This document shows positions 28,281 to 63,221 of a stretch of DNA of 64,000 nucleotides, piece by piece; within the stretch, counting starts at the first letter, position 1; each line of letters begins with the position of its first letter. Origin of the DNA: Clostridia bacterium (GTDB taxonomy: Bacteria; Bacillota; Clostridia; Oscillospirales; Acutalibacteraceae); the NCBI GenBank assembly GCA_017465505.1, contig JAFTWB010000017.1, forward strand, positions 1 through 64,000, in the 5' to 3' direction. The position numbers and the translations under genes are program-made. The notes beneath the pieces are model-generated. The model was not told where the DNA came from. It did no database searches and saw only the letters and a program-made list of their open reading frames with translations.

Positions 28281-28426
28281 TTTTATTATGTCCCCAAGGA
28301 AACATAATAAAAGCGATATATCATCTTCGATGATGTGATATTCGGCTTACGCCGAGTGATATTTGCCTTTGGCAAAGTGATATATTTTCCCTTATGAGAA
28401 AATGTTGTGGTGACACGCGTTGCGTG
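28281..28426. repeat. tandem hairpin array 1
   Basis: Six small inverted repeats stand in a row: TTTTATTATGT/ACATAATAAAA (28281-28312), ATCATC/GATGAT (28320-28334), TCGGC/GCCGA (28342-28355), TTTGCC/GGCAAA (28362-28376), ATTTTC/GAAAAT (28384-28403) and CACGC/GCGTG (28414-28426). Several are separated by GTGATAT. A possible -10 (TATAAT, 28429-28434) lies just upstream of the array on the minus strand, so it may be transcribed as the uvrC leader. The architecture matches the array at 63057-63221. Confidence 0.7.
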
Positions 28427-40706: not shown

Positions 40707-42665
40707 ATGAAACGATACATAAGCTTAATTTTATCAATACTTATAATTTTCTCAGCTTTAGGCGTGACCTTTGTTTCTGCCGAGGACAAATCCGAGAGCT
40801 TAGCCTCTTTACCCGAGGTTAAAGATGGGTTTAATCGTTATTTCTTCCTTTTGCCCGAGGATTGGTTCTGGGATGAGTCAAATGTTGTGGGCATTTACTG
40901 GCAAGGAAGCGACACTCCCTGTGAGGTCTGGCCCGGGTTTGAAGCACACAAGGCAGACACGGAGGATGTTTACTACTACGACGTGCCAGTTGACGCAGAA
41001 ACCATTATCTGGAACAATCACTACATCAACAGTGAAATTGACTACGACATTTCCAGATACAACAAGCGTACAGATTGGCTCACTCTAAAAAACACTCAGG
41101 GTCAGGTGATTCCCTCGGGGATGATTGCCACAGTTGACCCCGACTGGGAAGAAGAAAGGGGCACATACCCCACCTGTGACTGGTACTGCTACTATGGAAA
41201 CGGCGAGTACGGCAATGAACACACCAACAAGGAAGAAAACACCTACCGCTACTACTTCTATTTACCTGAGCAGTGGGACACCGAAGATTCTCAGGCAGCG
41301 GTATACTGGTGGTATCCCACAGACTTGGGCGACAGTGTTCTTGCCGAAAAGACAAATATAGATGGTCTTTACTACTGCGATGTTCCTCAAAAAGCCACTT
41401 TTCTTTGCTTTGGAAATTCCAAAGAAGCCGCTCTTAAAAGCAAAGGTGAGTCGGTATATGTTGAATGTAAATATCAGAGAGGCAAGGTTTTTGTAATTGA
41501 CTTTGACAAAACCACCCCCAGCAACGAGTTTGCTAACGAATACGTTTACAGCGGAAGCTGGTACATTTACTATGGTGACGGCACCTTCGGCGTTACAGAG
41601 AGAAAGGGAGATAAGTTTTACTCCTGCCGCTCTTTTGGCGGTGACAACCCTGCTCCCGTAATTGAAACCAATCGCTACTACTTCTATATGCCAGAGGAAT
41701 GGGACAACATTATGTCCTCAACACTTCACATTTACTGGTGGGAAGGCACAAACCATTGCGGCAGCTTCTGGCCTGGATATGAAGCTAACCCCACAACTAC
41801 AAAGGGTCTTTTCTACTACGATGTTCCCAAGGATGTTACTTCAATTATCATAAATAACGGCGTAACACGTATCAGTTCTCCTGTGGGAATCGATTTTCAG
41901 AGCAAAAACATAGGCACCGAATACTATGAGCCTGGCGAAAGCGAGCTTTATCCCGACGGACTTGAGAGCTTTGATAATATGGTTTACGTCATCAACTTTG
42001 ATGATATGTACTATGAGCTGGAAGGTCCTGTTATCGGCGGTGACTGGTACTATTATTACGGCGACGGTGAATACGGCACAACCCCACAGAAGGGCGATGT
42101 GGTGTATTCAAACCGCCAGATTGGTACACCTCCCAATTACAAGAGAACCGCTCCCGAGGAAAACGAAATGACCTTGTTTTTCCTTGATAGCGTTGAGCGT
42201 ACACCTGTTTACGTTATCTACACCGTAAACGAAGACGGAAAAGACAAATCCGCAACCACCATACTTACATCAATTGCACGCTCAGATAAAGGCTTGCTCT
42301 CTTACGCAATTGTTCCTGAAGATATAAAAGATGTTTACTTCTTCTATAATGAGGATGTGAAAACCCATTATATCAAGAAGAATCTGGTTCACAACGCTAT
42401 GTTTAGCTTCGGAACATTTGTCAATGGCAAGTACGACTACAAATCAACACTGCTGACAGAAGACCTTGATATTATCGAGTTTATTTCAGGCGATTCGGAT
42501 CAAAACGGCAAGGTGACTATTCAGGACGCAACCCTGATTCAGAAATATCTCGCCAAGAAGACTTTGTTGGGCGGTAAAGGACTGCAGGCTGCCGACTTCA
42601 ATAAAGACGGCAAGGTTACAGTAAAAGACGCAACCGCAATCCAGAAGTATCTGGCTAAAAGCTGA
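40707..42665 (+). CDS. secreted multimodular protein with repeated CBM-like modules and C-terminal dockerin
   Basis: 652 residues. Signal peptide (1-25, LILSILIIFSALGVTFVSAED). Three similar modules of about 130-150 residues follow (starting near residues 43, 184 and 325), each with 'RYYFYLPEEW' ... 'IYWWEG' ... 'WPGYEA' ... 'FYYDVP' ... 'INNG' and ending in 'GxWYYYYGDGEYG'; a fourth, shorter one starts near 490 ('MTLFFLDSVERTPVYVIYT'). The W-P-G and N-N-G patterns resemble starch-binding CBM25/26. Residues about 590-652 are a type I dockerin with two Ca loops (DSDQNGKVTIQD, DFNKDGKVTVKD) each followed by 'ATxIQKYLAK'. No catalytic domain: probably a substrate-binding subunit held by a cohesin scaffold. 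CBM family assignment is by eye. Confidence 0.85.
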   Translation: MKRYISLILSILIIFSALGVTFVSAEDKSESLASLPEVKDGFNRYFFLLPEDWFWDESNVVGIYWQGSDTPCEVWPGFEAHKADTEDVYYYDVPVDAETIIWNNHYINSEIDYDISRYNKRTDWLTLKNTQGQVIPSGMIATVDPDWEEERGTYPTCDWYCYYGNGEYGNEHTNKEENTYRYYFYLPEQWDTEDSQAAVYWWYPTDLGDSVLAEKTNIDGLYYCDVPQKATFLCFGNSKEAALKSKGESVYVECKYQRGKVFVIDFDKTTPSNEFANEYVYSGSWYIYYGDGTFGVTERKGDKFYSCRSFGGDNPAPVIETNRYYFYMPEEWDNIMSSTLHIYWWEGTNHCGSFWPGYEANPTTTKGLFYYDVPKDVTSIIINNGVTRISSPVGIDFQSKNIGTEYYEPGESELYPDGLESFDNMVYVINFDDMYYELEGPVIGGDWYYYYGDGEYGTTPQKGDVVYSNRQIGTPPNYKRTAPEENEMTLFFLDSVERTPVYVIYTVNEDGKDKSATTILTSIARSDKGLLSYAIVPEDIKDVYFFYNEDVKTHYIKKNLVHNAMFSFGTFVNGKYDYKSTLLTEDLDIIEFISGDSDQNGKVTIQDATLIQKYLAKKTLLGGKGLQAADFNKDGKVTVKDATAIQKYLAKS

Positions 42666-42719: not shown

Positions 42720-42745
42720 ATTGTATTAAATCTATCAGTCTTTTG

Positions 42746-43084
42746 CACCGCCGTTGATAAAAGTTCATAAATAAATGAACCTATCCAAAGGCGGAATTGC
42801 CAACCGTGGCTAACGGGTGGAATCGCCAACCGCGGCTAACGGGCGGAATTACCCTCAGTGGCTAGCGGATTCTTTATGCAATATCAAGCACCTGACCCGC
42901 CGTTGATGAGCTTCACCATAAGATGAACCTTCCCAAAGGCGGAATTGCCCACAGTGGCTAACGGACGGAATTGCCCTCAGTGGCTAGCGGATTCTTTATG
43001 CAATATCAAGCACCTGACCCGCCGTTAATGAGCCTCACACTAAGATGAGCCTTCCCAAAGGCGGAATTGCCCTCAGTGGCTAAC
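42746..43084. repeat. cluster of dispersed elements (copy D) with a 122-bp tandem duplication
   Basis: Three units, each starting CCGCCGTTRATGA and ending TGGCTAACGG, with extra partial units (GGCGGAATTGCCCTCAGTGG type). GCTAGCGGATTCTTTATGCA starts at 42861 and again at 42983, so a 122-bp segment is duplicated in tandem. The cluster fills the space between two convergent genes. Confidence 0.85.
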
Positions 43085-43087
43085 TGT

Positions 43088-45382
43088 TTATTTGATTTTT
43101 GCACGGATGATTTTACCGGAGATTGTCTTGGGCAGAGAATCCACAAAGTTTACGATTCTGGGGTACTTGTAGGGAGCGGTACGCTTCTTAACGTACTCCT
43201 GAATTTCCTTCTTGAGAGCGTCACTTTCCTGTGTGCCCTGAGTAAGAATAATAGTAGCCTTAACTACCTGACCTCGGATTTCGTCAGGTGCGGCAGTAAC
43301 TGCACACTCAAGAACATAAGGAAGCTCCATAATAACGGACTCAATCTCAAAGGGTCCGATACGATAGCCCGAAGACTTGATAACATCGTCAACTCGACCA
43401 ACAAACCAGAAGTTACCGTCGGTATCCATCCAAGCGGTATCGCCTGTATGATAGAATCCGTCGTGCCATACCTTCTGAGTAAGGTCGTCGTCAAGATAAT
43501 AACCCATATAAAGACCACAAGGATTGCCCTTGTCTGTCTTAATGCAGATTTCGCCGATATCACCTGCCTTGCAGGGATTGCCGTCCTTGTCAAGAATCTG
43601 GATATCGTAGAGAGGACTGGGCTTGCCCATAGAGCCAACCTTAACCTCGGCACCAACGAAGTTACCGATTGTAAGGGTGGTTTCTGTCTGGCCGTAGCCT
43701 TCCATAAGGCTTATACCTGTTGCCTTGAGGAACTGATGATAAACCTCGGGGTTAAGAGCCTCACCTGCAACGGTGGCGTACTTAACGGAGCTGAGGTCGT
43801 ATTTTGATAAATCCTGACGGATGAAGAATCTGTACATTGTAGGAGGTGCACAGAAGGTAGTGATTTTGTACTGCTTGAAGAGAGGCAGGATGTCGTCTGC
43901 GTCGAAGCGGTCAAAGTCGTAGGTAAATACAGCGGTTTCGCAGAGCCACTGACCATAGAGCTTGCCCCAGAGAGCTTTACCCCAGCCTGTGTCGGAAATT
44001 GTGAAGTGCATACCGTTGGGGTCAACGTTGTGCCAGTATTTGGCGGTGATGAAATGACCCAGAGGATACTTGTGGTTGTGAGCGGCGATTTTGGGATTGC
44101 CTGTTGTGCCTGAGGTGAAGAACATAATGAGGGGGTCGTCACCGCAGGGAGAATCTTCTGTTCTCTTGTATTTTGTGGAGAACTTCTCAAACTCATCCTC
44201 AAAGGTGTGCCAGCCTTCACGCTTGCCGTTAACGCTTACCTTAACCTCAAGAGTGGGGCTATTGAGAGCAGCCTTGTCTGCCTCGTCGGCAGTTTCACCG
44301 TCGGCGGTACAGATGATAGCCTTTACGCCTGCTGCGTTGAAGCGGTACTCAAAGTCGTGCTCTTTAAGAAGGTTGGTTGCAGGAATTGCAATAGCACCGA
44401 TTTTGTGAAGTGCAAGGATGGAGAACCAGAACTGATAATGACGCTTTAACACAAGCATAACTCTGTCGCCCTTTCTGATACCAAGGGACTCAAAGTAGTT
44501 CGCGGTCATATTGGAATACTCCATCATATCCTTGTAAGAGAAAACTCTCTCCTGCTTGGTGTTTGTAAGGTGAACCATAGCGGTTTTGTCGGGACATTTT
44601 TGAGCTAAACCGTCGATAACATCAAAAGCAAAGTTGAACTTATCCTCGTTTTTGAAGCTGATACCTGAAAGCACACCGTTTTCGTCGGTTTCGGTGGTGA
44701 TAAACTTCTCGTAAACGGGATTTTCCAGCTTTGCAAGGTCTGTATTGGTTGTGGTAGCGGCAATTACCTTTTCCTCGTAATTTGCCATACCGTTGGTATC
44801 GGGATTGATAACAATAGCGTAAATCTCACAGTCGCTTCCGCCGATAGCACGTTCATCGTGAGGAATTGAGCTGTCGTAGTAAATGCTGTCGCCCTCGTGT
44901 AAGATTTCGTATCTGTCGCCCACCTGAATTTTCATACTGCCCTTTAAAACGATATCAATCTCGTGGCCTGTATGAGTAGAAAGGTGCATAGGCTCGTTCT
45001 GAGCCTGCTCAGAGTAAGGAATAACAACGTGGAAAGGCTCTGCCAGCTTATTTTTGAAAGCAGGAGCAAGGTTGTAGTATTTGAAGCCCTCACGTCTTGC
45101 AAAGGGCATACCCTCGCCTTTTCTTACAACAGTGTACTGAGTAAGCAAGGGGCTTGTGCCTTCCATAATGTCTGTGATATCGAGAGAGCAGACATTTGCA
45201 AACTTATAGATAAATGTAAAGCTGAAATCACTCTGACCAGACTCAAGCTGGCGGTACTCCTCGGCAGTTGTGCCTGTCTTTTTAGCCATCTGCTCTACTG
45301 TAAAGCCTAAATCCTCACGAACGCTTTTAATTCGGTTTGCCACCTCTTTTATTCTTTCGTCAATCATCAAGTTCTGTGACAA
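43088..45382 (-). CDS. HTH-cupin-acyl-CoA ligase fusion
   Basis: 764 residues; TTG start at 45380-45382 with AAAGGAGAGG upstream. Domains: XRE-type HTH (about 10-65: 'RIKSVREDLGFTVEQMAKKTGTTAEEYRQLESGQSDFSF'), cupin (about 110-190: 'HTGHEIDIVLKGSMKIQVGDRYEILHEGDSIYYDSSIPHDERA'), then an ANL-family AMP-forming acyl-CoA synthetase (about 265-764) with 'MFFTSGTTGNPKIAAH', 'EGYGQTETT', 'YHTGDTAWMD' and the catalytic Lys 757 in 'SGKIIR'. It resembles the medium-chain/acetyl group of ligases. Activates a carboxylic acid as acyl-CoA; HTH-cupin alone is a known regulator type, so the fusion may sense a metabolite or bind DNA. Expression is controlled by a T-box leader. Confidence 0.9.
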   Translation of the reverse strand: MSQNLMIDERIKEVANRIKSVREDLGFTVEQMAKKTGTTAEEYRQLESGQSDFSFTFIYKFANVCSLDITDIMEGTSPLLTQYTVVRKGEGMPFARREGFKYYNLAPAFKNKLAEPFHVVIPYSEQAQNEPMHLSTHTGHEIDIVLKGSMKIQVGDRYEILHEGDSIYYDSSIPHDERAIGGSDCEIYAIVINPDTNGMANYEEKVIAATTTNTDLAKLENPVYEKFITTETDENGVLSGISFKNEDKFNFAFDVIDGLAQKCPDKTAMVHLTNTKQERVFSYKDMMEYSNMTANYFESLGIRKGDRVMLVLKRHYQFWFSILALHKIGAIAIPATNLLKEHDFEYRFNAAGVKAIICTADGETADEADKAALNSPTLEVKVSVNGKREGWHTFEDEFEKFSTKYKRTEDSPCGDDPLIMFFTSGTTGNPKIAAHNHKYPLGHFITAKYWHNVDPNGMHFTISDTGWGKALWGKLYGQWLCETAVFTYDFDRFDADDILPLFKQYKITTFCAPPTMYRFFIRQDLSKYDLSSVKYATVAGEALNPEVYHQFLKATGISLMEGYGQTETTLTIGNFVGAEVKVGSMGKPSPLYDIQILDKDGNPCKAGDIGEICIKTDKGNPCGLYMGYYLDDDLTQKVWHDGFYHTGDTAWMDTDGNFWFVGRVDDVIKSSGYRIGPFEIESVIMELPYVLECAVTAAPDEIRGQVVKATIILTQGTQESDALKKEIQEYVKKRTAPYKYPRIVNFVDSLPKTISGKIIRAKIK

Positions 45383-45440
45383 TGGGATCCTCTCCTTTAC
45401 CGATAAATTTAATGAGATAAAATAAAATAAAATGATATGA

Positions 45441-45724
45441 AAAATAAAAAAGCCGTCTCAAAGGAAAAACCTTGAGACGACTGAAAAAACTTTCTAAGCC
45501 GCGGTACCACTCAATTTGCGAGGACTATCGCCCTACACCGCTTACAGGTTCTGACAAACCCTCTGTCTTAACGCGACATTCACGGGAGCGTCTACTCAGG
45601 CAAGACCTTTTCGGACTCCGGCTCGGAAGGGATAATCAAACGGTAAGACTCAATACAACCTCGCACCAAACGGTTGCTCTCTGAAATAAAGCCAGACCTG
45701 ACTTCTTCGTCACAGCCTTTAATG
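45441..45724 (-). ncRNA. T-box riboswitch leader
   Basis: On the minus strand the leader contains the stem I AG-bulge/distal-loop signature AGAGAGC...TTTGGTG (AGAGAGC at 45676-45682), the T-box TGAGTGGTACCGCGG (45499-45513) and a terminator, CGTCTCAAGG / CTTTGAGACGG-type stem (45454-45480) with a T tract to 45441. The antiterminator bulge reads UGGU, which pairs with a tRNA ACCA end, i.e. discriminator A. In stem I the likely specifier is AUU (Ile) at 45634-45636, followed by A and by UCCCUUCCGAG. It is a transcription-attenuation T-box about 60 nt before the acyl-CoA ligase fusion. Specifier assignment is by eye and less certain than the T-box itself. Confidence 0.9.
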
Positions 45725-45730
45725 TAGTAA

Positions 45731-45759
45731 AGAATAGCAAAAACAACTTAATTTGTCAA
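45731..45759 (-). promoter_or_regulatory. promoter of the T-box transcript
   Basis: TTGACA (45754-45759), 17 bp, TATTCT (45731-45736) on the minus strand; start near 45724, giving a leader of about 340 nt. Confidence 0.85.
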
Positions 45760-50520: not shown

Positions 50521-53500
50521 TTATCCTTCGTAGTCGTAAACGCCTACCTTGAACTTGCCTTCACCGTCGGTTTCGTTAAGTAGGTAGAAGCCCTTGCCGT
50601 CTTCAACGTTTTCTTTGATATCAACTGTCTGCTGAGTGCCGTTGTTGAAGATAATATTGGGAGTAGAGGGGTCAAGCTCGTACTTGTAAACCTTCTCTCC
50701 GTTTTCGTTAAGGCCCACATACTCCATAGCTGTGCCGGGCCAGGTGGTTGAATCACTGCCGCCCCAGAAGAAGATGTTTACCTTGCTCCAGTTTTTATTG
50801 TTGGAGAAGTAAATTGTCTTCTTTTCAGGGGGTGTAATCTCATCAAAAGCACCGTCAACAAGAGCAAACTGGAACATATGATAGGTCACGTTATTGTTGC
50901 TCTGACCGTGAGCGTTTGACATATTTCTGTCGTACCAGTTTTCCTCGCCGTACTTAACTGTAACTTCGTGCTCGCCTGCCTTGAGATTAAGTCTTAAGTG
51001 AGAGCTGAGCTGGTGGCCGTTGCTCATTGCAGGGAATACCAGTGTGCCAACGTCCTTGCCGTCAACGTAAACGGAACGGATAGCGGCAGTAATGCCGGCA
51101 GTGGGGTCGCCCTGATTTGTGTGGATAGAGGAGAGCTGATACTCGCCGTCCACAGGAATGTTCACTGTAAAGGTAGCAGTGTTGAGCTTGTCGCCAACAT
51201 TAACTGTCACGTTAGAGCCTGCAGGACTTACTGCAATGGGCTTGGAAAGCTCAGACCAGAGGCCTGTGCTCTTATCCACTGCCACAACACTGTAGCAGCC
51301 GTAAACGGAGTTATCAATTGTGTAAGATGTATTGTTTACATCAACATATTCTGTACCTGTCCATACCTTGTATGTGCAGTTTTTAACAGCGTTCCACTTA
51401 AGGGTTGTACCTGTAAGTGTAGCCTTGGGAGCATTGGGAGCCTTAGCGGTGTTTTCGTCCTTGAGGTTTATGATATCCTCTGCACCACTGTCGGTTACTG
51501 TGATTGTGATTGAATAGTCGCCATTTGCATCTACAGGTAAAACGTAGTCGTTTTCAACCTGTTCGCCGTTAACGTAGATAGACTCTACTGTGTCACCCTT
51601 ACCGTTAAGCTCCAAGGAGAGGTTTGCGTTTCTGTATTTGTAGTTGTCAACATAGAAGGGGCCTTCCATCCACTGAGGAACATAGGGGTCAAAGGTGATA
51701 CCCTCTGTGGTGTACTCCATACCATAGAGCACTCTGAAATAACCTGCCATTGTGGCGGCAACTGACCAGAGCTGCTGAGTAGAGTGCAGACCCTCGCCTG
51801 TTTCGTAGTCAATAACCTCGTAGTTTGTGAGGCAGGCAGCTGCACCACGGATACAGGAGTTCCAGATTTCCTCTGCAAGAAGGTTGTTTTCGTTCTCGTT
51901 ATTAACGGCACCAATCATAAGAATTGCTTCCCAGCCGGGCCATACACCACTGTCATGGTATTTATAATCTGTCCAACGCTCTGCGTTTTTCTGGGGATAA
52001 ACTGTGTTTGCACCGAACTCAACGAGGGTGTGGTTTTCCATAATGGAGTCAGCCTTTTCCTGACCGCCGATGTTGTACCATACTGCGTAGCCGTTGGCAA
52101 GAACATCCTGCTTGTAAGCAAGGGGTGAACCCATCCAGTCGGGATATTCCCAAGAGGTGTATGTGCCCAAATCCTCAAGCCAGAGTCTGTCGGAAATTGC
52201 TTTTTCAAGGTCAGCGGCCAAATCTGCCCAAGCCTTTGCTTCAGCCTCACCCTTACCGAGAATCTCAGCAGCCTGAGAGAGAATCTTCATAGCCTGACAG
52301 AAGATCATGTTTGTGGAAGCGGCTTTGCCTTCGGCAATTGTTACGATACCGTTTTCGTCGTCTTCGCCTGTCCAGTCACCGTAGGTTTTATCTCTGTGGT
52401 CAAGACCGCAGGTTTCACCGCGGAAAAGACCTGCTTCGCTATCGTAAACTACTTCGTAGTCCTGCATAATTGTATTGGAGGCTACCTCGTAGAAGTACTC
52501 AAGTGTTTCAAGGTTTCCGTCTGCAAGGTAAGTTTCCCAGACAGCCAACATCATAATGATTCTGTCGGTAGATACGGGGTAAGAGCCGCCTGTACCTGTG
52601 TCTTCTTCAAAGGTAAGGTTGCCGTCCTTGCCCACAACCTTTGCCTCGGCACAGTTTGTGGAAATTTCAGGGAAGAGCCAGGAAAGAATGTACTGCATTG
52701 AAATAGCGGTGTCACGGGTCCATACCTTGTGCCAGTTTGTACCTGTGTAGAACACATCGCCATAGGTTTGGTCATAGTTAATGCTCTTGAAAATCTCTTC
52801 CATAGTCAGGTTGTAGGCTGCCTCTGCAAGAGGTGTGTTGGGAGCATAGAAAGTGGGAGCTTCATCTACAATAAAGGGGTCATATTCCCACTCTCTGTCA
52901 GAGCCTGTTTCGCTTGTTAAGATATGTGTGCCTGTGTTTGCAATTACACGGGAGTCGTTTTCTGTAAGACCGTTAACAAAGAGGGTGTAGTCCTGCTTGT
53001 CACTTACATTAACTGAGCCGCCCTTATACTCTGTATCGCCGTAAACCTGAATTGCCTTTACGCTTACTTCAGTGCCGAAATCAAAGTAGAAGCCGAAGGA
53101 GTAGGTGTCATCCAGCTCAAACACTACGTCATTGCCCTGAACAACGCCTTCGACCTCAACAGTTTTGTTGTCGGCGGTGGTGAGCTTTGCTTTGCAAACT
53201 TCAATTTCTGTTACGGGAGCAGTGGGTGTATCGGCAGAAACCTCTGCAAGCTGAGGCACAGCCTCGGTATTTGCCTTTACAATAACATACTCGCCGATGG
53301 GATAATCAATAGCCATCTTTGCGGCGTATTTCTGAATTGCGGTTGCGTCCTTGACGTTAATCTTATTGTCTGCATTTACATCAGAAGCAATAGCACCATC
53401 ACCAACGAGAGAAACAATTTTTGCGGCGTGCTTCTGAATAAGGGTTGCGTCCTTAACGTTAACCTTTTCATTTAAGTCTGCGTCACCCAGAAGGATTGAT

Positions 53501-55350
53501 TTTTCTGTAACCTGAGCAGTAGAAGAAGGCTCTGTCTTCTCAGGAATACTTTCTGTGGGGGTTGTATGGGGTACAGTGGTTACAGGAGCAGAAGTTGCGG
53601 GTACAGTAGCAGAAGAAGGCTCTGTTGCCTCAACAGTACCTGTAACTGTTTCTGTGGGAGAAACTGTTGTAGCAGTTGCAGAAGGCTCTGTGGGGGCTAC
53701 GGTTGTAGCAGGAGCAGTAGGAGCAGTAGTAGGCTCAACAGGCTTCATTTCTGTTTCTACACCCTCAAGGCCTACAAACACAACCTTATCAACTGTAACT
53801 TCCTTGTCAAAGCCGAAGCCTAATTTGCCTTCGGTTGCTGTAGTTGTCTGATAGGGGTATTCCCGGGCATTTACCCAGCCGTCATTTGTGCTTACATAGC
53901 CCTCAAGAGCAATGTCATCGGCTGAGGCCATATCCTTGGCACCCAGAACCTTGAGCTCAACATCAAACATACTCTCAGACTTAAAAACAAACCAGGTTAA
54001 GGATTCGGGATTTTCAAAGTCAACGACTCTTTCTTCGTCTTCAGCAATGGCTTCAACTGCAATTTCCTTGCCGCCACTTAAAATAAGCTTTCCTTCGGGA
54101 ACATCCTCGGCGGCAGTAATAACAATACTTTCAACATCGAAGGTGTTCTTGAAGCGATAGCCTGTTTCGCTTGAATCGTAGTCGAAAATCAAATAGCCCA
54201 TAGGCTCAATATTTTTCTTGTAAACCAGCTTGATATTGCTTACGGAAACATCATTTTTATCGGCAAAAACCATAAGCTCGGTTTCACCCTCGAGAACAAT
54301 GTCAAACTCGGGATTTTCCTCGGATATAGTTTCGCCAACACCATTGCTTAAAACGATAACACCGCCCTTTTTGGTAGCGGCACTATCAACAGATACGGTG
54401 TATACGCCGTCCTGTGCAGGCTTTACGTTTACAATAACGTATTCGCCCTCGTCAGCGTTCTGCATAAGGCCGTTTTTAACAAGAGAGGCGTCGCTTGCAC
54501 CGTCAAAGTTTGTGAAGTTGATATTTGTTACACCTGCTAAGATTTCGTCAAGGGTGTTTGCAGGAGAAACAGTAATCTTATCTACATTATAAGTACCACC
54601 GATGTTATCGATAGTAATTCTGTTGTAGCCGGGCTTGAGGGTTTTGGTGATTACAACGGTTTTGTAAGTCTGCCAGGCACCGGTAGAGCTGAAATGCTCG
54701 TTGGATGTATTCTCGCCTGCATTAAAGCAGAAGTAACCGTCGTCTGTTTCTGAGGCTACACTGATTTCAAAGCGATAAGTAACTGCTTCTTTGCCGGGCA
54801 CAGTTACGCCGTAGTTGAGGCTGTCGCCTTCACCAAAATCGCCTACATACTTGCCTGCGGAAACTTTTGAGTTTGAAAGCACACTTACTGCACCCAGTGC
54901 AAAGGTGTACTTTTCGGCTTCAATTGTGGTAGCCTTTGTGGCACTTAAGGTGAAGTCCGACTTTGTATTCATAATTTCTGCGGTATAATCTCTTGTTCTG
55001 GTATTGGCGGTAAACTTAACGATAGAGTCAGCCTCAATTACAAGGTGAGCGTTATCGTCGTCGTTTTTTGCGTCACCGATAGATGTACTCCAGTTGGGAG
55101 TAGCAATCTTAAACTCGTAGTTGCCGCCTGTCATATCCAGCACAAGAGTATAGATACCGTTGCCGTTGTCAACAAACTTATACTCATCATAACAGTTCCA
55201 TCCGTTCATATTACCCTTCAGGTAAAGACCTGCTGAAAGGCTGTTGGCGGATACCGAAAGCACCCCGGACATCGGAACTGCACTTAAGAGCAGAAGCAGA
55301 CACAGAAGTGTGCAAAGTATCTGCATATACAGTTTCTTCGTTGTTTTCAT
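50521..55350 (-). CDS. secreted multimodular glycosidase with internal dockerin and starch-binding modules
   Basis: 1,609 residues. Signal peptide (1-35). Modules by eye: CBM48/E-set-like start (about 40-125, 'LYLKGNMNGWNCYDEYKF'), CBM35-like (130-270, 'TTIEAEKYTFALGAVSV'), further beta-rich parts (275-540), a Thr/Pro/Ala linker (545-615), a dockerin (about 620-690: 'DADLNEKVNVKDATLIQKHAAKI', 'DVNADNKINVKDATAIQKYAAKM'), a discoidin-like part, an (alpha/alpha)6 glycosidase domain (about 850-1230: 'WTRDTAISMQYILSW', 'LDHRDKTYGDWTGED', 'HDSGVWPGWEAILMIGA'), a second CBM35-like part (1380-1500) and a C-terminal CBM26-like module (1510-1609: 'IYFSNNKNWSKVNIFFWGG', 'TWPGTAMEYVG', 'NIIFNNGTQQTVDI'). 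It probably acts on alpha-glucans outside the cell. GH family not assigned. Confidence 0.85.
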   Translation of the reverse strand: MKTTKKLYMQILCTLLCLLLLLSAVPMSGVLSVSANSLSAGLYLKGNMNGWNCYDEYKFVDNGNGIYTLVLDMTGGNYEFKIATPNWSTSIGDAKNDDDNAHLVIEADSIVKFTANTRTRDYTAEIMNTKSDFTLSATKATTIEAEKYTFALGAVSVLSNSKVSAGKYVGDFGEGDSLNYGVTVPGKEAVTYRFEISVASETDDGYFCFNAGENTSNEHFSSTGAWQTYKTVVITKTLKPGYNRITIDNIGGTYNVDKITVSPANTLDEILAGVTNINFTNFDGASDASLVKNGLMQNADEGEYVIVNVKPAQDGVYTVSVDSAATKKGGVIVLSNGVGETISEENPEFDIVLEGETELMVFADKNDVSVSNIKLVYKKNIEPMGYLIFDYDSSETGYRFKNTFDVESIVITAAEDVPEGKLILSGGKEIAVEAIAEDEERVVDFENPESLTWFVFKSESMFDVELKVLGAKDMASADDIALEGYVSTNDGWVNAREYPYQTTTATEGKLGFGFDKEVTVDKVVFVGLEGVETEMKPVEPTTAPTAPATTVAPTEPSATATTVSPTETVTGTVEATEPSSATVPATSAPVTTVPHTTPTESIPEKTEPSSTAQVTEKSILLGDADLNEKVNVKDATLIQKHAAKIVSLVGDGAIASDVNADNKINVKDATAIQKYAAKMAIDYPIGEYVIVKANTEAVPQLAEVSADTPTAPVTEIEVCKAKLTTADNKTVEVEGVVQGNDVVFELDDTYSFGFYFDFGTEVSVKAIQVYGDTEYKGGSVNVSDKQDYTLFVNGLTENDSRVIANTGTHILTSETGSDREWEYDPFIVDEAPTFYAPNTPLAEAAYNLTMEEIFKSINYDQTYGDVFYTGTNWHKVWTRDTAISMQYILSWLFPEISTNCAEAKVVGKDGNLTFEEDTGTGGSYPVSTDRIIMMLAVWETYLADGNLETLEYFYEVASNTIMQDYEVVYDSEAGLFRGETCGLDHRDKTYGDWTGEDDENGIVTIAEGKAASTNMIFCQAMKILSQAAEILGKGEAEAKAWADLAADLEKAISDRLWLEDLGTYTSWEYPDWMGSPLAYKQDVLANGYAVWYNIGGQEKADSIMENHTLVEFGANTVYPQKNAERWTDYKYHDSGVWPGWEAILMIGAVNNENENNLLAEEIWNSCIRGAAACLTNYEVIDYETGEGLHSTQQLWSVAATMAGYFRVLYGMEYTTEGITFDPYVPQWMEGPFYVDNYKYRNANLSLELNGKGDTVESIYVNGEQVENDYVLPVDANGDYSITITVTDSGAEDIINLKDENTAKAPNAPKATLTGTTLKWNAVKNCTYKVWTGTEYVDVNNTSYTIDNSVYGCYSVVAVDKSTGLWSELSKPIAVSPAGSNVTVNVGDKLNTATFTVNIPVDGEYQLSSIHTNQGDPTAGITAAIRSVYVDGKDVGTLVFPAMSNGHQLSSHLRLNLKAGEHEVTVKYGEENWYDRNMSNAHGQSNNNVTYHMFQFALVDGAFDEITPPEKKTIYFSNNKNWSKVNIFFWGGSDSTTWPGTAMEYVGLNENGEKVYKYELDPSTPNIIFNNGTQQTVDIKENVEDGKGFYLLNETDGEGKFKVGVYDYEG

Positions 55351-63056: not shown

Positions 63057-63221
63057 TCGGGTCGCTTCGCTCCGATTATTAAATAAAATAGGATTGCACG
63101 CACAGCGTGCCACCGACATATTGACGCAGTAAATACTTCATACGCCGAAAGGCGTACTTCATTTGCCAACGGCAAATTTCATACACGCAAGTGTATTTCA
63201 TTACATTCGCTCTGCGAATGT
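63057..63221. repeat. tandem hairpin array 2
   Basis: Six small hairpins in a row: TCGG/CCGA (63057-63075), GCACGC/GCGTGC (63096-63110), TACGCC/GGCGTA (63141-63156), TTTGCC/GGCAAA (63162-63176), ATACAC/GTGTAT (63181-63196) and ACATTCGC/GCGAATGT (63203-63221). The last four are joined by TTCAT. The hairpin TTTGCC/GGCAAA also occurs in array 1. Not a CRISPR: arm sequences differ from unit to unit. Confidence 0.7.

Follow-up and report, generated by a model that had tools for sequence, protein, structure and literature searches.

The window analysed here, a stretch of 64,000 nucleotides (positions 1 to 64,000 of contig JAFTWB010000017.1) from a Clostridia bacterium that is probably a gut inhabitant, carries a class I T-box leader directly in front of a gene for a fusion of helix-turn-helix (HTH), cupin and acyl-CoA ligase parts. 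The leader carries the isoleucine codon AUC as specifier, and the same arrangement was found before most orthologues of the gene. The features of the locus are as follows.

45731..45759, minus strand: promoter-like site TTGACA-17-TATTCT with TG preceding the second hexamer, sigma-70-like, a consensus match only
45470..45722, minus strand: class I T-box leader, positions 1-219 of RF00230 (76.8 bits, E 5.5e-17, below the gathering score of 93)
45676..45682, minus strand: stem I signature AGAGAGC, a sequence match
45631..45633, minus strand: specifier codon ATC (Ile), from the Rfam alignment, the T-boxes of the same genome and the comparison of relatives
45499..45510, minus strand: T-box sequence GTGGTACCGCGG, a sequence match, whose UGGU could pair with the ACCA of tRNA-Ile
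45472..45514, minus strand: antiterminator (UUGAG/CUCAA and an inner helix), exclusive with the terminator, from folding and the leader alignment
45441..45482, minus strand: intrinsic terminator, a 13-pair hairpin (45482-45451) and a T run, a pattern match
43088..45382, minus strand: HTH-cupin-acyl-CoA ligase fusion of 764 aa with a TTG start after AAAGGAGAGG and the ligase motif GWGKALW, from a domain search and the reading frame

The leader and the ligase

In the covariance search, which covered 481 bases, the leader aligned to all 219 of the 219 positions of the RF00230 model. A gathering-level Rfam scan of the window listed no T-box because the score of the leader is below 93, and this miss is a matter of the curation threshold and not a structural feature. 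When 20 related leaders were searched with the same model, all of them matched, with scores of 67.7-107.6 bits, and five reached 93 bits or more. Stem I, with AGAGAG and the GGTG apical part, was present, base-paired and supported by covariation. The alignment used for this contained 18 leaders, the window leader plus 17 from the 20 tested relatives (L275, L286 and L288 were excluded), and 20 of its 37 consensus pairs retained pairing via two-sided changes in at least one sequence. The UGGU bulge lay within the antiterminator, which overlaps a terminator arm in sequence and excludes the intrinsic terminator. Folding of the 3′ part of the leader without the 3′ arm of the terminator gave the antiterminator at -9.5 kcal/mol, and the whole tail folded into the terminator at -25.2 kcal/mol. 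The complete T-box leader described in a first-pass annotation of the window, with AGAGAGC, GTGGTACCGCGG, antiterminator and terminator, was thus borne out, and the covariance search found stem I and an aligned Ile specifier even though the score fell short of 93. The same annotation had given the leader its own promoter, which agrees with the promoter-like site at 45759-45731, a consensus match only; compared to the chance level, 651 bases held four promoter-like sites with 1.4 expected and one terminator with 0.7 expected.

The gene directly behind the T-box encodes HTH_19 (PF12844)/HTH_3 (PF01381) and Cupin_2 (PF07883) domains followed by AMP-binding (PF00501, 220.2 bits with a gathering score of 29.9) and AMP-binding_C (PF13193, 78.5 bits with a gathering score of 24.5), confirming the acyl-CoA ligase fused to an HTH-cupin part that had been read from the letters. 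The nearest NCBIfam model was MbcS (NF047394), the methylbutyryl-CoA synthetase of S. aureus, which shares the ligase domain and the likely substrate with the window protein. The score of 444.5 bits did not reach the curated cut-off of 850, so the reading of the window protein as an ordinary MbcS was rejected. The HTH-cupin part lies outside the stretch that matched, and MbcS serves fatty acids, as described in the available part of PMC10026030, where it activates 2-methylbutyrate and isobutyrate and handles propionate and isovalerate poorly. The closest solved structure was PDB 3etc, MacsMa of Methanosarcina acetivorans, at 652 bits, with the runner-up at 368. The match to this archaeal enzyme spans only the ligase part (residues 246-763 of the query) and includes GWGKCVW at the position of GWGKALW in the window protein. 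To our knowledge, no T-box is known for MacsMa. According to the accessible text of PMC10455477, the 3etc enzyme prefers 2-methylbutyrate. From these relatives and from the genomic context presented below, 2-methylbutyrate is the most likely substrate of the window ligase.

The specifier codon and its conservation

The Rfam alignment placed ATC (45633-45631) at what we take to be the specifier position of the RF00230 model. Other T-boxes of the same genome, with specifiers read by eye and genes named by look, gave sensible codons in the same register, namely TTC-C for pheS, ACC-A for thrS, TGC-A for a cysteine operon, TGG-G for trpB, and ATC-C with the tandem partner CTC-C for an ilvA operon. 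Furthermore, ATC was invariant in 127 of 127 readable Ile-type leaders of distinct ligases, and also among the relatives from the genus, while the base after it varied (A 68, C 47, G 10 and T 2) and seven different dinucleotides preceded it. The Rfam alignment, the register within the genome and the invariance of ATC between variable flanks ruled out AUU (ATT, 45636-45634), the specifier first proposed. The actual codon is AUC, three bases further on, and it is followed in the window by C and not by the purine that had been part of the proposal. The sensed amino acid remains the same, since AUC, like AUU, encodes Ile, and it agrees with the putative function of the controlled gene as suggested by the gene linkage described below. 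The U of UGGU was kept in 153 of 153 readable leaders. No tRNA-Ile(GAU) was found among the 28 tRNA matches of the window's assembly, which has 30 contigs and is 84% complete. A tRNA-Ile pattern was found in one of 14 same-genus genomes, the single-contig genome G068, in four copies that each ended in ...A-CCA, and this discriminator A is the base required by UGGU.

A scan of named genomes gave at least 497 confirmed relatives of the ligase, and the best 80 loci were kept, including those of R. flavefaciens FD-1, Y1 and SAb67 and of Neglectibacter timonensis. Among these best 80, a T-box motif stood right before the gene at 78 loci, all but L098 and L110, and the specifier was ATC in 73 of the 73 leaders in which it could be read. 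The first-pass annotation had suggested such a survey. Four of the five unreadable specifiers lay near a contig start. The fifth was that of L075, from an R. flavefaciens metagenome-assembled genome, in which stem I of the T-box before the ligase was shortened. When all loci were considered, 174 distinct full-length fusion ligases were obtained, of which 127 had ATC, 25 had GTA (Val), one, read in the wrong register, had ATC by eye and 21 were without a readable specifier. At the class level, where 93 of 291 genomes gave matches, 25 of 28 loci had ATC, two had GTA and one was unreadable.

In a sample of 197 genomes from the order, 89 full-length fusion genes were examined on their 5′ side; this list excludes partial matches and genes with internal stops, and the upstream sequence available for G241:C196 was too short. 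The leaders of these genes comprised 53 with ATC, one more with ATC by eye (L319, gene of L368), 21 with GTA, one with GTC, and 13 without the T-box motif. The GTC leader (L288) belongs to a second-copy ligase and has a synonymous Val codon in place of GTA. Five of the 13 without the motif matched RF00230 with an altered T-box sequence (L357, L359, L360, L361 and L362), and in L357, L359, L360 and L361 the specifier was ATC by eye. The ACCGCGG after GTGGT was lost in L357, L359 and L360, and leaders of this type possibly represent a translational or otherwise altered T-box.

Valine and leucine counterparts and neighbouring genes

In many genomes, a second fusion ligase lay directly after the first and had its own T-box with GTA. 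A FastTree protein tree was built from 114 rows, comprising 111 of the 174 fusion ligases and three outgroup rows, and the Ile/Val label changed once on this tree, although FastTree gave a long-branch warning and the deeper nodes are uncertain. The Val group consisted of 25 Val rows and one row without a T-box at a support of 100, and two changes instead of one were obtained when the rows without a T-box were given a third label. Five alignment columns separated the Ile and Val groups without overlap, and two of them fell within the GWxKxxW motif of the ligase core, at Gly468 and Leu471 of the window protein. The ATC ligases had G-K-[AS]-L in 127 of 127 cases, and the GTA ligases had A-K-[AS]-[AM] in 25 of 25. 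Among 14 fusion ligases called without a T-box motif, the motif residue was Gly in 12 and Ala in two. The motif and the 3etc structure suggest that this residue may set the size of the acid pocket, with Gly accommodating the larger 2-methylbutyrate and Ala accommodating isobutyrate. A further 22 regions had Leu-type or split ligases, and nine of these had a CTC (Leu) T-box together with a leuA-like gene. The ligases of these nine operons had GWMKSVW in eight cases and GWQKAFW in one. The other 13 regions, read for gene order and motif only, had A, G, M or L at this residue, and we propose no codon rule for these regions.

The neighbouring genes in relatives connected the ligase to 2-oxoacid:ferredoxin oxidoreductase (VOR). 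Six order-level regions were picked because the ligase and vorB lie close to each other, and in five of them the Ile T-box and the orthologue of the window gene headed a run of VOR genes. In L418 and L420 the order behind the ATC T-box was fusion ligase, ATPase, VorB, VorA, gamma subunit and branched-chain aminotransferase (BCAT). L421 had the same order without the ATPase, L419 had the ATPase and no recognised BCAT, and L422 had two fusion ligases behind one ATC T-box followed by VOR genes, again with no recognised BCAT. BCAT was thus present in three of the five Ile T-box runs. The gap behind the ligase was approximately 110, 0, 475 and 245 bases in L418, L419, L420 and L421, respectively, and the ligase was on the same strand as the VOR genes, suggesting that they may be co-transcribed in these relatives. 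In L423, L199, L200 and L201, a Val T-box ligase, accompanied by VOR and BCAT genes, stood behind the Ile T-box ligase, and in L199-L201 the next element was a Leu T-box, with leuA-like and TIM-barrel/AMP ligase genes.

The fusion and these genes also occurred together when whole genomes were compared. In a sample of 100 genomes from the genus, 61 gave a match at 1e-150 and 36 carried the fusion (hits with at least 57% identity). vorB was found in 33 of the 36 carriers (one of them with a partial match under the cut-off) and in none of the 64 other genomes, and a leuA-like gene was found in 34 of the 36 carriers and again in none of the others. ilvD was absent from 29 of the 36 carriers compared to 7 of the 64 others. 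When the count was restricted to genomes with a completeness of 90% or more and a contamination of 5% or less, vorB and the leuA-like gene were each found in 16 of 17 carriers and 0 of 32 others, and ilvD was absent from 14 of 17 carriers and 3 of 32 others. Among the genomes of the order sample, vorB was present in 64 of 67 carriers and 65 of 130 non-carriers (129 genomes with a match, 123 of them above the cut-off), and the ligase lay within 5 kb of vorB in at least 24 of the 67 carriers.

A search of the window's own genome with RF00230, at E up to 1, gave ten matches, and four of these scored above the cut-off. The tandem T-box (ATC and CTC, contig C30) precedes ilvA-ridA-leuA-leuC-leuD-leuB-ilvB-like genes, named by look, and a search found ilvD on the same contig. 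A separate CTC T-box heads a run of nine genes, namely leuA-like, TIM-barrel/AMP ligase, BCAT, ATPase-like, VorB, VorA-type thiamine pyrophosphate subunit, gamma subunit, HTH-cupin and MbcS-like ligase, of which the last two are a split counterpart of the window fusion with 47% identity. A further MbcS-like ligase stands at the end of a fab/acc-like cluster on C30 (names by look except for the ligase). No T-box was found on the strand of this cluster in the RF00230 search; the tandem T-box adjoins its start but is on the opposite strand and reads away from it.

Two other AMP ligases were seen near T-boxes in this genome. In the Leu T-box operon, the TIM-barrel part (AP_endonuc_2) is fused to the AMP ligase (L021:13029-15548), an arrangement conserved in relatives. 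On C25, a T-box with TAC (Tyr) precedes a different AMP ligase (L022:13208-13448, with relatives at L139-L168). Genus orthologues of the latter had the T-box motif at 11 of 30 loci, and the ten readable specifiers were all TAC by eye; this ligase perhaps leads from 4-hydroxyphenylacetate to Tyr.

The proposed role of the ligase

We consider it very probable that the T-box, by sensing tRNA-Ile through AUC, controls an acyl-CoA ligase that serves Ile synthesis by reductive carboxylation, most likely with 2-methylbutyrate as the acid, so that a by-product of fermentation would be turned back into Ile. A shortage of Ile would leave tRNA-Ile uncharged, and the uncharged tRNA would pair with the specifier and, via ACCA, with UGGU. 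This would stabilise the antiterminator and allow the ligase gene to be transcribed. The ligase would then convert 2-methylbutyrate to 2-methylbutyryl-CoA, VOR would reductively carboxylate this product to 3-methyl-2-oxopentanoate, and the branched-chain aminotransferase would form Ile. Ruminococci reportedly need or use branched-chain volatile acids, as is said to have been found by Allison and Bryant and by Robinson and Allison. Carboxylation in the rumen leads from isobutyrate to Val, from 2-methylbutyrate to Ile and from isovalerate to Leu, and in the part of this account that was available (PMC7356843) neither the activating enzymes nor a control by tRNA charging was described. The first-pass annotation had proposed that the ligase feeds Ile synthesis from 2-methylbutyrate, propionate or a similar acid. 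The feeding of Ile synthesis was supported by the conserved AUC, the Val paralogue, the runs of VOR and BCAT genes, the co-occurrence with vorB and the frequent lack of ilvD in the genus. Propionate became unlikely in most genus carriers, 29 of 36 of which are without ilvD.

Several observations weigh against a role in Ile synthesis. The window's own genome retains ilvD and has genes that look like ilvA and ilvB, and the salvage route would therefore be a supplement there. The window ligase also stands alone, apart from the VOR genes, and its score remains below the curated cut-off of the nearest named model. Eight of the 89 order-level ligase genes were without a T-box by motif or RF00230; one of them, in G158, directly adjoins another ligase gene and comes second in the pair. 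Half of the non-carriers in the order sample have vorB. G010, a 100% complete genome, has a T-box ligase and ilvD with no vorB match at 1e-60, and no vorB match was found in the less complete carriers G014 and G044 or in the order-sample carriers G127, G164 and G179. Finally, the genome counts are raw and ignore relatedness.

The nearest named family, MbcS, serves fatty acids (available part of PMC10026030), and the window ligase could likewise feed the synthesis of branched-chain (anteiso) fatty acids. The Ile T-box would still make sense, as a shortage of Ile would at the same time deplete what 2-methylbutyryl-CoA is usually made from. The case of G010 fits this explanation, and the acyl-CoA could serve both ends. 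However, in the own genome the fab/acc-like cluster contains an MbcS-like ligase of its own, with no T-box on the cluster strand, the Ile T-box ligases precede VOR genes (with BCAT in three of the five runs) as do their Val and Leu counterparts, and ilvD is frequently missing in genus carriers. Amino acid synthesis was favoured because of the gene order and the separate ligase in the fab/acc-like cluster, and we regard a primary role in lipid synthesis as unlikely, although both uses may coexist.

The acid could also be propionate, the alternative named earlier, with propionyl-CoA being carboxylated to 2-oxobutanoate that enters the normal Ile pathway. The own genome would permit this, as it has ilvD and, by look, an ilvB-like gene. 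2-Oxobutanoate still needs IlvD, which is missing in most genus carriers (including 14 of the 17 in the higher-quality subset), and propionate is a disfavoured acid for CoA transfer in MbcS as well as in the closest relative of solved structure (available parts of PMC10455477 and PMC10026030). For these reasons 2-methylbutyrate was favoured, and with Val and Leu paralogues also pointing to branched acids, we consider propionate quite improbable. A general short-chain acyl-CoA ligase that inherited its T-box by chance, without any pathway logic, would fit the family members found without a T-box, but it is hardly credible in view of the near-invariant specifiers, the single Ile-to-Val change that fits the paralogue split, the matching change of the ligase residue, and the gene order.

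The proposed role in Ile synthesis from 2-methylbutyrate can be extended to the whole family, and we judge this wider model to be probable. According to this model, the ligase paralogues would activate 2-methylbutyrate, isobutyrate and isovalerate, although the Leu type could instead start from isobutyrate by way of the leuA-like gene, and each ligase would be placed under the T-box of the resulting amino acid, with AUC for Ile, GUA or once GUC for Val, and CUC for Leu. The specifier and the acid pocket would have changed together once, from AUC/Gly to GUA/Ala, so that the codon would predict the substrate. Many genomes of the genus would rely on this salvage in place of de novo synthesis of branched-chain amino acids, and the HTH-cupin part fused to the ligase would be a second sensor.

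Class I T-boxes (RF00230) share with the window leader stem I, AGAGAG, the specifier, UGGU and the antiterminator/terminator pair, and Ile and Val are ordinary T-box specificities. The difference here is the target, an acyl-CoA ligase putatively used for acid-to-amino-acid salvage, and the fact that the ligase paralogues come with corresponding T-boxes for Ile, Val and Leu. The T-boxes of ilv/leu operons, such as the one on C30, also have an Ile specifier and a target in amino acid synthesis, but they serve the classical de novo route, whereas the window gene would open another one. A T-box before a leu gene was described for leuA of Geobacter (available part of PMC2700814). The term CoA was absent from the main text of the Wels 2008 paper, and CoA, acyl and ligase were all absent from the main text of the TBDB paper. 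No description of a T-box before an acyl-CoA ligase was found in the literature searched, which covered few subscription journals and included some sources in part. T-boxes and the carboxylation chemistry are each known, and within this literature no account was found that combines the two or that describes the set of Ile, Val and Leu versions or the pairing of codon and residue. The results name candidate genes for the acid-activating step and suggest a way in which the cell may time their use. The specifier codon and one ligase residue together offer a code from which substrates would be predicted for many ligases that lack an annotation. This also offers an explanation for members of the genus without ilvD, in which Ile, Val and Leu may come from acids excreted by neighbours.

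Other features of the window were noted outside the leader and its gene. Downstream of the ligase gene, the stretch 42733-43084 contains direct repeats, with two copies of 122 nt that are 90% alike and three 40-nt repeats with GGCGGAATTGCC...GTGGCTAAC. Two Gut-1 RNAs (RF01706), both above the gathering score, lie at 28311-28388 on the plus strand and at 63130-63203 on the minus strand. Large proteins with dockerin-like repeats (DSDQNGKVTIQDATLIQKYLA...), recognised by eye, are encoded at 40707-42665 and 50521-55350.

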